Below, piece by piece: positions 60,598 through 63,632 of a stretch of DNA of 64,000 bases (positions are counted from its first letter, which is position 1; every line of letters starts with the position of its first letter). The notes beneath the pieces are model-generated. The model had not been told where the DNA came from. It did not search any database and saw nothing but the letters and a program-made list of their open reading frames with translations. The DNA comes from Halobacteriovorax marinus SJ (GTDB lineage: Bacteria > Bdellovibrionota > Bacteriovoracia > Bacteriovoracales > Bacteriovoracaceae): assembly GCF_000210915.2 (NCBI RefSeq), contig NC_016620.1, positions 1,984,001 to 2,048,000 of the forward strand, read 5' to 3'. Position numbers and translations under genes: made by a program.

Positions 60598-60691
60598 GTT
60601 TCTCTCCCAAAATTGTTAAAATGATGCCTATAAAATACCTTGATAATTTTGGATGCACAACCATGATGCAACGAGCATTACTTAAGACGGC

Positions 60692-61237
60692 CTACTTTAA
60701 TTTCTCGAGTTGATTTATAAATTCTTTAAAGACATCAACTCGCCCCTCTCCCTCACACCAACGACGTAGAGCAGATTTATTGAACTTTTGTGCCTTTGCT
60801 ACAAGAATTGCTTGATCGAAACACTCTCTTGCCTTGAAATAAATATAGCTAGAAAGCCTGTCCTTAATACAGTCTGTCGGTGACAATATTTTAATTCTAG
60901 AACCGTGAACTTCTCTTTCAATTTCTTTGATACTACTATCCTCTCCAATAGAGAGAGGACCTGGAGGGAACTCTATAAAGAGATGTTTGCAATCTGGGTG
61001 GATATAATTCTTTCCCTTTTTAAGGAAGCCAATTTTCTTCATTACTTCGGGCAATCTATCCTTTGATAAATTTTGAATGATAAAATCTAGATCTCCAGAC
61101 TCGTAAGCACCTTCAGTATAAATAGAGACAACAGCACCACCAACCAAAACAGCCTCAAAACCATGAATGGCCAAATGCTTTCCTACATATAGCCAAAGCT
61201 CTTCCTCGCTACAATTCTTAAAATCAATACGCATCAC
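60692..61237 (-). CDS. Nucleotidyltransferase-fold protein (AbiEii/DUF6036-like)
   Basis: 181 aa. VLVGGAVVSIYTEGAYESGDLDFII (residues ~31-55) has the [GG]-x-A/S...D-x-D arrangement of minimal nucleotidyltransferases (AbiEii-, Mnt- and DUF6036-like). Catalytic Asp pair is DLD. A C-terminal helical part (DRLSSYIYFKARECFDQAILVAKAQ) is typical of these. It overlaps the winged-helix gene upstream by ATGA, an arrangement seen in toxin-antitoxin modules. Antitoxin or toxin function is inference from this layout. Confidence 0.7.
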   Translation of the reverse strand: MMRIDFKNCSEEELWLYVGKHLAIHGFEAVLVGGAVVSIYTEGAYESGDLDFIIQNLSKDRLPEVMKKIGFLKKGKNYIHPDCKHLFIEFPPGPLSIGEDSSIKEIEREVHGSRIKILSPTDCIKDRLSSYIYFKARECFDQAILVAKAQKFNKSALRRWCEGEGRVDVFKEFINQLEKLK

Positions 61238-61581
61238 TTTTTACGTCCAATAACAGGTTTCCCTACCCTTCGTGGCCTTCTTCTTACCTCAAACATTTCT
61301 TCTTTTTCTCTCAAAGGAATAGAGTCATATACTGCTTTAACCATCTCCATAAAAGGTTTAACAATGGCACCATTTCTTAGATTAAATTGGTAAACCCGAG
61401 TACGTCCTTGAAGTTTAGAAATTATAAGCCCTGCATTTTCAAATCTCTCAAATTGCTTTTGAACTGCACTAAGAGAGATCTTCATATCCTTGGCCACAGC
61501 TGAAGGATAAGTTTCCCCGTAGTGAAATAAATGTAAGAATATTTTCTGTGCGGTTTTTGAACCTAAAATCAAATCTAGCAT
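61234..61581 (-). CDS. Winged-helix transcription regulator
   Basis: 115 aa. Residues ~1-75 form a MarR/ArsR-like winged helix: AQKIFLHLFHYGETYPSAVAKDMKISLSAVQKQFERFENAGLIISKL-type helix-turn-helix with a wing at GRTRVYQFN. The C-terminus is very basic (RRRPRRVGKPVIGRKK). Probably an autorepressor: two copies of a perfect inverted repeat lie directly upstream. The ATG is close to the -10 box, so the transcript may have almost no leader. First gene of the two-gene unit with the nucleotidyltransferase. Confidence 0.8.
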   Translation of the reverse strand: MLDLILGSKTAQKIFLHLFHYGETYPSAVAKDMKISLSAVQKQFERFENAGLIISKLQGRTRVYQFNLRNGAIVKPFMEMVKAVYDSIPLREKEEMFEVRRRPRRVGKPVIGRKK

Positions 61582-61587
61582 ATTTTA

Positions 61588-61616
61588 ATTATACTTCAGA
61601 ACCTTGACAACATCAA
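61588..61616 (-). promoter_or_regulatory. Promoter of the winged-helix/NTase unit
   Basis: On the minus strand, TTGATG (-35, 61611-61616), 17-base spacer, TATAAT (-10, 61588-61593). The ATG at 61581 begins only six bases after the -10, so transcription would start at or just before the start codon. Confidence 0.7.
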
Positions 61617-61651
61617 CCTCTATAAGAGGTTATATAACCTCGAAAAGAGGT
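61616..61651. promoter_or_regulatory. Double operator of the winged-helix regulator
   Basis: Two copies of ACCTC-N5-GAGGT at 61616-61630 and 61637-61651, start to start 21 bp (two helical turns). Inner arms also form the 16-bp palindrome GAGGTTATATAACCTC (61626-61641). It abuts the -35 box of the gene, typical of an autorepressor operator. Confidence 0.7.
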
Positions 61652-61698
61652 CAACTCCTGCCACCACTGGGCTAATAATAACAAACACTTAGACAGTT

Positions 61699-63282
61699 TC
61701 ACTGTGAGAGACGAGCGAGGTAGAGCCCATAACAGTGAGAGCGGACTTTTCTAAGAGAAATAATCATATCTGAATAAAGAAGAGATGGGTTTTCGTTGCC
61801 GTGACGAAGATTCTCACACTCCTCTTTCAGCTCGTTAGAAATATCTCGTATCTCTAAAGGATCACTCTTAACTCCCGCACCTAAATTCTCGCAACAAATT
61901 TCATAGAAAGACCTCACTTTAGAAAGTAGTTCAACAATTCTCTCTAAGTGAACCTCTTCAAGACCTTCTTCAATTACGATCTTTGTTTTATTTGTCACAA
62001 AGTTATTGAGGTAATCTGCTATGGCCTCAAACTCTTTTGCCACGAAGAGAATAGATAGAGACTCTTTGGCCTGTGATGAATTGAGAGTGTTTTCCATAAG
62101 TGATCTAATAAAGACTTCCATCTCCTTACTAATACGATCAGTAATATCTTCATATTTTTTGATCTTAGCAAGTTGTCTAGGACTTCCCTCTGTATCACTT
62201 ATATAGATAGCAATTTGATCAAACATTCGATCGACAATACTCTTTAATTTATACATTTCCTTGTGACCTTGCCACAGTGCTGTCGCAGGAATGAGTTCAT
62301 CAGATCTACCAAACGCAATTAATCTCTGAGGGATCTTAATCTCTGGTGTTGGAATCATTTTAAAGACAATCTCTCTTATAAACTTAAAGAAAACGAGCGA
62401 TACAATAATATTAAAAGCATTCAGCACTGTATAAAAGAATGGAAGAACAAAGTTAAGTCCAATATAAGACTGAACAAGTGCCAAGCTACTAGAAAAGAAT
62501 GTAAGATAAATGAGAGCACTTGGAATTGAGAGAGAATTTAAAATAATATTAAAGAGAGCTGAGCGCTGACCTTCAATATTTCCCTTCTTCGAATTTAGGT
62601 ACAACTTAATACACGGCCCTAGCGAAGCTCCCGCCATGACAGCACAAGAGAGTTCCACAGAGATATTGTGAGTATAGAAAAAGGCCATGAAGAGACCTAT
62701 TAAAAGAACCGTACTATTTAGAAAGTATGATACTAAAACGCCAAGAATAATTGCGATAAGTAGAGAGAGAAATTCGTGACCTTCTACCAAAGAGGTTGGA
62801 ATTCTCAGGGTATCTGAATTAAAGAAGTTAATACAGAGATCTAATCCTAAGTAGAGAAAACCTACTCCTAGAACAACTCTAGAAAATAATTTTACGGCCA
62901 ATACTCTAATAAAGAAGTGGCCCACGGCACCTATGAAAAGAAATAAGTAAGACCAATGAGAGAGATCAAAAGTGAAGAGCCACGGAAAGATCGAAGCTCC
63001 TAAGTTAACTCCCATAATAAAGAGCGCCGAGATACTAAATTTAACAATTCCCGAATTAACCAGACCAAGAATCATATTGGTGCAAGAGTAAACACTTAGC
63101 ACACTTGCCCCGCTCAAGAGTCCCATTAAAAATGAATTGCGAGATCGAATAACTGTCTTTGCATTTAATCCACGCAGGACTTCACCAAAGAGCGATTGCA
63201 TGGAGAGCACTAGAAAGTTTATAGAGAAAATAAAGAGGGCAACACCGCCTAAGAGCGGCCAGATACGTTCGATGGGAATCAT
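61699..63282 (-). CDS. Na/Pi cotransporter family protein with PhoU-like tail
   Basis: 527 aa. The first ~320 residues hold the membrane domain with repeated Gly/Ser-rich segments (GLLSGASVLSVYSCTNMILGLVNSG; MGVNLGASIFPW; VLVSYFLNSTVLLIGLFMAF; MAGASLGPCIKLY) typical of the NptA/YjbB (SLC34-like) family. Residues ~340-527 are a helical PhoU-like cytoplasmic domain. Imports phosphate or a related anion with sodium, or acts as an exporter as proposed for YjbB. Starts 3 bp after the small membrane protein gene at 63285 on the same strand. Confidence 0.82.
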   Translation of the reverse strand: MIPIERIWPLLGGVALFIFSINFLVLSMQSLFGEVLRGLNAKTVIRSRNSFLMGLLSGASVLSVYSCTNMILGLVNSGIVKFSISALFIMGVNLGASIFPWLFTFDLSHWSYLFLFIGAVGHFFIRVLAVKLFSRVVLGVGFLYLGLDLCINFFNSDTLRIPTSLVEGHEFLSLLIAIILGVLVSYFLNSTVLLIGLFMAFFYTHNISVELSCAVMAGASLGPCIKLYLNSKKGNIEGQRSALFNIILNSLSIPSALIYLTFFSSSLALVQSYIGLNFVLPFFYTVLNAFNIIVSLVFFKFIREIVFKMIPTPEIKIPQRLIAFGRSDELIPATALWQGHKEMYKLKSIVDRMFDQIAIYISDTEGSPRQLAKIKKYEDITDRISKEMEVFIRSLMENTLNSSQAKESLSILFVAKEFEAIADYLNNFVTNKTKIVIEEGLEEVHLERIVELLSKVRSFYEICCENLGAGVKSDPLEIRDISNELKEECENLRHGNENPSLLYSDMIISLRKVRSHCYGLYLARLSQ

Positions 63283-63284
63283 AA

Positions 63285-63632
63285 TTAGCTAGTAGTCATC
63301 TTCGCAAAGAAAATTGGAATGATGATATAGAGAATTGTGTCTCGAACAAGATAGAATAAGAAGAAGTAAATGAAGGCCTTTGGCCCTTTATTCCACAATT
63401 TTTCAATTCCAAGATATTGAACTTTCTTGCTCATTGAAATCATAAATGGAGTTTTCCCCCAATGCTTCACGAAGAAACTAAGGGCACCATCAACGCGCTT
63501 GTCGAATCTAATAAAGGCATTTATAACAAATTGCGGAGTCATTCTAAGAAGAAATGCTTTCATCACTTCTCCCCAACGCTCCCAAAATGGTCTACTATCT
63601 TTATTTTCAATTGTATCTACGGCCTTATTCAT
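63285..63632 (-). CDS. Small membrane protein
   Basis: 115 aa: cytoplasmic-looking amphipathic N-terminal half (FWERWGEVMKAFLLRMTPQFVINAFIRF), then one transmembrane helix near the C-terminus (GPKAFIYFFLFYLVRDTILYIIIPIFFA). No family recognised. It precedes the Na/Pi cotransporter gene by 2 bp, so it may be an accessory subunit or simply co-transcribed. Upstream 63633-63781 is AT-rich and should hold the divergent promoters. Confidence 0.6.
   Translation of the reverse strand: MNKAVDTIENKDSRPFWERWGEVMKAFLLRMTPQFVINAFIRFDKRVDGALSFFVKHWGKTPFMISMSKKVQYLGIEKLWNKGPKAFIYFFLFYLVRDTILYIIIPIFFAKMTTS

Follow-up and report, generated by a model that had tools for sequence, protein, structure and literature searches.

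A two-gene unit on the minus strand of a 64,000-nucleotide stretch of the Halobacteriovorax marinus SJ genome (contig NC_016620.1, positions 1,984,001 to 2,048,000; termed the window here and numbered from its first letter) looks like a self-regulating toxin-antitoxin (TA) system of an undescribed variety, marked by the spacing of its operator sites at 21 bases, or two helix turns. The first open reading frame (61234–61581) encodes a winged helix-turn-helix protein (wHTH) of 115 amino acids with an ArsR/SmtB-like fold, which is the proposed repressor and antitoxin. The second open reading frame (60692–61234) encodes a nucleotidyltransferase (NTase) of 180 amino acids from the ATG at 61234, with an in-frame GTG at 61237 as an alternative start, and is the proposed toxin. 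We consider it probable that the pair is a mobile, autoregulated TA module in which wHTH is the repressor, the tail of wHTH is the antitoxin, and an NTase with a MenT-like fold is the toxin; toxicity, its neutralization, and DNA binding are predictions. An earlier note on this DNA had proposed an autoregulated TA or NTase-based defense unit. This proposal is supported by the co-conservation of the two genes, the one-sided decay of the NTase, covariation between the operator and the recognition helix, the 21-bp phasing of the operators, and a leaderless-type start. The general traits of TA systems are also present, namely two small overlapping or adjacent genes, an obligate partner, and a patchy and plasmid-borne distribution.

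The earlier note had made its proposal depend on the two genes being conserved together, and they are. Across the Bdellovibrionota a full wHTH gene immediately precedes 73 of the 74 intact NTases. The sole exception, in genome G097, has a truncated wHTH gene from which the promoter has been deleted together with the DNA-binding half of the protein. The phylum also contains 28 broken NTases, 22 of them beside a full wHTH, and 12 further wHTH genes without any NTase. Where one member of a pair is broken, wHTH is the member lost in 1 of 23 cases compared with about 9 of 23 expected for decay proportional to gene length (binomial p = 1.8 × 10−4, treating the loci as independent). Decay of the NTase beside an intact wHTH, with the reverse seen once, is the pattern predicted for a TA pair, and the best explanation is that the NTase is the harmful partner.

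Seven genomes of one genus carry a solo wHTH without an adjoining NTase, upstream of a gene for an AsmA-like protein of 763 amino acids (a name assigned by eye from the sequence). All seven proteins have lost the basic C-terminal tail, and their operators (CAACTA...TAGTTG) and −10 spacing are intact; most other orphaned copies of wHTH retain the tail. In the window protein the tail (FEVRRRPRRVGKPV, residues 97–110, 61252–61293, minus strand) is conserved and is the proposed NTase-neutralizing element. Its consensus, RRRPRRxGKPV, is the most conserved stretch of wHTH (mean identity 0.79), and it is modeled with low confidence in the AlphaFold2 monomer. The most economical interpretation is a division of labor, with the tail dedicated to the NTase and the winged helix to the operator. 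The solo clade looks like a domesticated antitoxin that has become a chromosomal regulator. At the two loci of this clade (L172–L178, genus g4) that were read, the tail-less gene (e.g. L172:2927–3253) with its intact 21-bp operators lies 0–45 bp from the AsmA-like gene.

The same observations bear on a TA pair in which protection is purely transcriptional, with wHTH acting only as a repressor, the NTase harmful merely when overexpressed, and the tail binding DNA in the minor groove in the manner of an AT-hook. We judge this arrangement unlikely. It would accommodate the strong covariation between operator and recognition helix described below, and the sole NTase with a broken wHTH is also without a promoter; moreover, a basic Arg-Pro-rich tail could touch DNA. 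However, the tail-less solo proteins keep a good operator lattice and −10 spacing, showing that the tail is dispensable for operator use in that clade.

Upstream of the pair, palindromes of the form ACCTC-N5-GAGGT at 61616–61630 and 61637–61651 bear out an earlier claim that two such sites lie exactly 21 bp apart, measured from start to start. The claim that they are identical holds for the 5-bp arms but not for the spacers, which are TATAA and GAAAA. The promoter-proximal operator, AACCTC-TATAA-GAGGTT (61615–61631), is centered 42 bp before the start codon, and the promoter-distal operator, AACCTC-GAAAA-GAGGTC (61636–61652), is centered 63 bp before it and 21 bp from its neighbor. These are the sole two matches to ACCTC-N5-GAGGT in the 64 kb, even when one mismatch is allowed. 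Two or more matches occurred in 43 of 100 shuffles, so the count alone is unremarkable and it is the pairing and position of the sites that are remarkable. In the whole genome AACCTC-N5-GAGGTT has a single perfect site, and the remaining sites listed, each with one mismatch, are dispersed, which makes the operator pair unique in the genome.

The 21-bp spacing recurs in relatives. A set of 40 distinct relatives was assembled from the order, two further metagenome-assembled genomes (MAGs), and a Cloacimonadota locus. In 21 of these 40 there are two sites 21–22 bp apart, compared with 0.44 expected (maximum 3 in 200 shuffles), and complementarity across the set peaks upstream of the ATG at −71, −50, and −28/−29, a periodicity of 21 bp. 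When four half-sites were scored jointly in 85 upstream regions, with spacings of 20, 21, and 22 bp permitted, 55 regions exceeded the 99% point of the null distribution and all 55 selected 21 bp. The half-site itself varies (ACCTC, ACCCC, ACCTA, GCCTA, ACCTT, AACCA, TCCTA, GTTCTA, and others), and it does so in a concerted manner, with both arms of both copies, four arms in all, shifting together. The Cloacimonadota loci likewise have a 21-bp operator lattice in which arms and copies vary together. Half-site distance tracks recognition-helix distance after the rest of the protein has been allowed for (partial 0.284; 0 of 300 permutations), and the recognition helix (residues 36–49, 61435–61476, minus strand) shows stronger partial covariation with the half-site than every other segment of wHTH. 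The covariation and the 21-bp lattice together are good evidence that wHTH binds the palindromes, and does so on one face of the helix. Some loci have three or four operator sites (L014 and L027). Upstream of wHTH in L027 and L028 there are up to four copies on the 21-bp lattice with the half-site ACCA, starting in L027 at −94, −73, −52, and −31.

In many relatives the lattice is displaced onto the −10 element or the start codon, and in the window the proximal palindrome reaches as far as the −35 element. Both arrangements fit repression, which on these grounds is more likely than activation at this promoter. It is very unlikely that wHTH is instead an activator, a role for which the register in the window, with sites at about −42 and −63, would match class II and class I activator positions but which the operator positions just described do not suit.

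The promoter itself was correctly described in the earlier note as a near-consensus TTGATG-N17-TATAAT element. It lies on the minus strand (61616–61588) and has 10 of 12 consensus matches. The −35 element (TTGATG, 61611–61616) has its first base in common with the proximal palindrome, and the −10 element (TATAAT, 61588–61593) is, as had been stated, six bases 5′ of the wHTH ATG at 61581, a leaderless-type start. An ATGA overlap claimed for the two genes was wrong: the stop and start codons form TGATG (61232–61236, minus strand), with one base in common, if the NTase begins at ATG, and GTGA if it begins at the GTG at 61237. In relatives the NTase gene often uses TTG, a weak start. No intrinsic terminator was found at the NTase/wHTH locus, and an Rfam scan over the locus gave no match. 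A TANNNT motif is found 5–8 nucleotides before the ATG in 34 of the 40 relatives compared with 4 of 55 long open reading frames of the window, which served as the control set (Fisher p = 3 × 10−15), and Shine-Dalgarno-like tetramers are found in 3 of 40 compared with 35 of 55 (Fisher p = 1 × 10−8); the relatives are not independent in either p value. The Cloacimonadota members have a possible Shine-Dalgarno sequence in place of this start, indicating that the leaderless-type start belongs to the Bdellovibrionota side. The start is kept across the order, from which we infer leaderless transcription.

The nucleotidyltransferase fold that had been assigned to the second gene is upheld by profile, AlphaFold2, and Foldseek comparisons. 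The NTase scores 20.5 bits against the Pfam family DUF2204 (PF09970; cut-off 20.3) over residues 16–61 only, a borderline membership, and the same profile is matched by 31 of 32 NTase homologues at E ≤ 0.1. The AlphaFold2 model has a predicted local distance difference test score (pLDDT) of 95. The best Foldseek match in the PDB is MenT1 in the MenAT1 complex (E = 2.8 × 10−5, template modeling score about 0.5). Further matches are to ANT(2″) and LnuA (E = 6 × 10−5 to 6 × 10−4) and TM1012, followed with less significance by TglT (Rv1045, MenT3) and MenT4. The motif GG-x14-DLD (residues 32–50, 61085–61141, minus strand), which includes SGDLD with Ser-46, Asp-48, and Asp-50, is invariant in 32 sequences, as is Glu-88 (60971–60973, minus strand), a candidate third carboxylate. 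Searches of PDB sequences with the NTase alone and with an NTase profile gave no match, PADLOC and NCBIfam scans with the NTase gave nothing meaningful, and a literature search on DUF2204 found no relevant paper.

The earlier description of the first gene product as a small winged-helix protein is likewise upheld. wHTH matches an ArsR-type profile at 26.7 bits, below the NCBIfam cut-off of 55; its AlphaFold2 model has a pLDDT of 88, and Foldseek matched it to SmtB, SqrR, CzrA, and AspA in the PDB. It thus shares the winged-helix fold of the ArsR/SmtB repressors, but it differs from them in its family score, in an extra basic tail, and in having no cysteines at all and hence none that could bind metal.

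The structural matches to ANT(2″) and LnuA raise the alternative of a non-toxic enzyme for resistance or metabolism that nucleotidylates small molecules, as these two do, under the control of its own ArsR-type repressor, a regulator commonly placed ahead of a detoxification gene. We regard this as quite unlikely. It leaves unexplained why virtually no NTase persists in the absence of the regulator and why the tail is lost where the NTase is permanently absent, and a wHTH without cysteines also speaks against it.

Of the solved structures, that of MenT1 is closest to the fold of the NTase, and MenAT1 (Rv0078A/Rv0078B) is likewise a two-gene unit with an NTase. Both enzymes have a Ser/Thr-x-Asp active site, S46-G-D48 in the window NTase and T39-x-D41 in MenT1 (PMC10435456), and the invariant SGDLD provides the S/T-x-D-x-D metal site of the MenT fold. 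Nevertheless, MenA1 is a protein of 68 amino acids without a DNA-binding domain (PMC10435456), whereas the partner here is a wHTH, and by sequence the window NTase is not a member of DUF1814 (PF08843). None of the 32 NTases matches PF08843 in Pfam or AbiEii in PADLOC, a PF08843 search of the window genome found none, and hhalign of the NTase against AbiEii proteins from the same family of bacteria (14 in all) gave a probability of 5%, aligning the catalytic motif only.

A DNA-binding antitoxin acting at inverted repeats in the promoter is known from AbiE and MenAT3/4 (PMC3985639, PMC7319586, PMC11375011). The type IV system AbiE (AbiEi/AbiEii) and the pair Rv2827c/Rv2826c resemble the proposed make-up of the window pair in combining an NTase-fold toxin with a winged-helix antitoxin, which in these systems autoregulates via the promoter repeats (PMC3985639, PMC7319586). 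Membership of AbiE nevertheless fails by sequence, as there is no AbiEii/DUF1814 match and neither Pfam nor PADLOC detects an AbiEi domain in wHTH. AbiEi is a two-domain protein (COG5340) that binds 23-bp repeats 3 or 13 bp apart, whereas wHTH is a single winged helix of 115 amino acids in all with a short basic tail, and its 17-bp palindromes are spaced at 21 bp.

MntA-HepT (MNT-HEPN) is another TA-like unit of two genes with a small NTase. In that system the NTase is the antitoxin and its partner is a HEPN RNase. The window pair does not belong to it: the partner is a wHTH rather than HEPN, the NTase has no match to the MNT family and carries GG-x14-DLD rather than the GSx10DxD MNT motif, and the decay data point to the NTase as the harmful part. 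Closer on the regulator side is the predicted ArsR-COG3832 (Aha1/START) TA pair, a patchily distributed combination of an ArsR-like regulator without a metal site and one small gene, although the partner there is not an NTase (PMC2701414). In the part of this 2009 survey available to us, ArsR-COG3832 is the only stable pair with a non-Xre helix-turn-helix protein, and an ArsR-NTase pair is not among the entries (PMC2701414). Literature searches on the NTase/wHTH pair, on Bdellovibrio NTase TA systems, and on Leptospira ArsR TA systems, with most subscription journals outside their reach, found no description of the pair.

The NTase profile detected matches in 98 of 369 Bdellovibrionota genomes and in 12 of the 125 genomes in the phylum to which the Cloacimonadota MAG L007 belongs. 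Matches on plasmids come from Leptospira (39 records), Bdellovibrio, Sulfurimonas, Sulfurospirillum, Acidiphilium, and Croceicoccus, and 12 provirus-like contigs also have a match; phage genome records gave none for either NTase or wHTH. A plasmid search at the DNA level returned one weak Leptospira stretch. In the window the module sits between the gene for a Na/Pi cotransporter and guaB, and in two congeners the cotransporter gene directly adjoins guaB, leaving an empty site. Mobility of the module is the best explanation of its patchy spread, plasmid carriage, and the empty site.

The distribution also bears on whether the unit is one of phage defense by abortive infection, in which infection would trigger the NTase restrained by wHTH, so that defense would be the selected function and TA behavior the means. 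This we hold to be a doubtful possibility. Such a unit would work like AbiE, a known abortive infection system (PMC3985639), its patchy distribution is in keeping with this role, and some neighbors match ShosTA, PsyrTA, and AbiE models. On the other hand, PADLOC has no family for either protein, the neighbors of the module are mostly metabolic or transport genes, and the module also occurs on plasmids of Leptospira and on provirus-like contigs. A TA module is favored over a dedicated phage-defense unit because there is no specific PADLOC match, no match in phage genomes, and only an incidental mix of TA and defense genes among the neighbors. A defense-island setting was considered and rejected: the matches to AbiE, ShosTA, and PsyrTA models are single ones among 98 neighbor genes, with no consistent neighbor and no control set. 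AbiEii itself is present in 66 of the family's 115 genomes and absent from the window genome. One genome has an AbiEii-type NTase gene roughly 1.3 kb away from the pair, within a single contig (G011:C187:10–2773).

Several points weigh against the TA reading. The decay counts may include MAG assembly errors, and the relatives behind them are not independent. Loss of the tail in solo copies is confined to one clade and is perhaps one event. The operator sites of the window are also at classical activator positions. The antibiotic NTases ANT(2″) and LnuA, together with TM1012, score similarly to MenT1 in Foldseek. Finally, the catalytic Lys and second Asp of MenT1, K137 and D152 (PMC10435456), are without an invariant counterpart at the corresponding spacing: NTase columns 124 and 140 are K/R/I and D/E/N, and the invariant residues there are D125, R126, and Q141.

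If the pair is a TA module, it may work as follows. The N-terminal winged helix of wHTH would bind the array of half-sites, spaced one helical turn apart, and repress its own promoter, most likely as two side-by-side dimers bound cooperatively to one face of the DNA. The basic tail, probably disordered when free, would bind and block the NTase. A drop in antitoxin would free the NTase, which would then stop growth, most likely by modifying an RNA such as tRNA; an RNA substrate, likely tRNA, is suggested by that of MenT (PMC10435456). Translation of the antitoxin would start on a leaderless-type mRNA, and that of the toxin would be coupled to it through ribosomes reinitiating at TGATG. A bolder and distinctly tentative proposal is that the pair represents an undescribed class of NTase TA systems spanning at least four phyla. 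Its minimal ArsR-fold antitoxin would neutralize the NTase with the Arg-Pro tail and measure its own level on the half-site lattice, the leaderless message would tie antitoxin synthesis to the state of tRNA or of initiating ribosomes, and the tail-less repressor-operator pair would have been recruited upstream of the AsmA-like gene after loss of the toxin.

A compact NTase TA family would be an addition for predatory bacteria and Leptospira plasmids, where most of these genes are annotated as hypothetical proteins. With dozens of operator/recognition-helix pairs that have diverged, the family offers a natural experiment in how winged-helix specificity changes at a fixed 21-bp phasing, the tail-less solo proteins are a built-in control for repressor versus antitoxin function, and the conserved leaderless-type start yields a specific prediction for antitoxin translation under stress.

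Positions just downstream of a tRNA gene or near tmRNA are typical insertion points. tRNA genes lie directly upstream of the module, at 52–68 bp, in L018 (1030–1107) and L019 (2268–2344), a tRNA gene lies further upstream in L017, and a tmRNA gene is beside L012 (2516–2879). No integrase was established near these loci, and insertion at tRNA or tmRNA genes was rejected as a general rule since only two loci have a tRNA gene directly upstream. On a Sulfurimonas plasmid (L171:2719–4242) the pair follows genes annotated as a γ-glutamylcyclotransferase family protein and a reverse transcriptase-like protein. The cotransporter/guaB junction (60598–61698 in the window; L068–L071 in congeners) is a variable site, and in two other congeners a SMP-30-like or MATE-like gene, named by eye, adjoins the transporter. 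The Na/Pi cotransporter of the window (61699–63282) has a C-terminal PhoU-like region and is followed by an unannotated protein of 115 amino acids (63285–63632), which is kept beside the cotransporter in all congeners.
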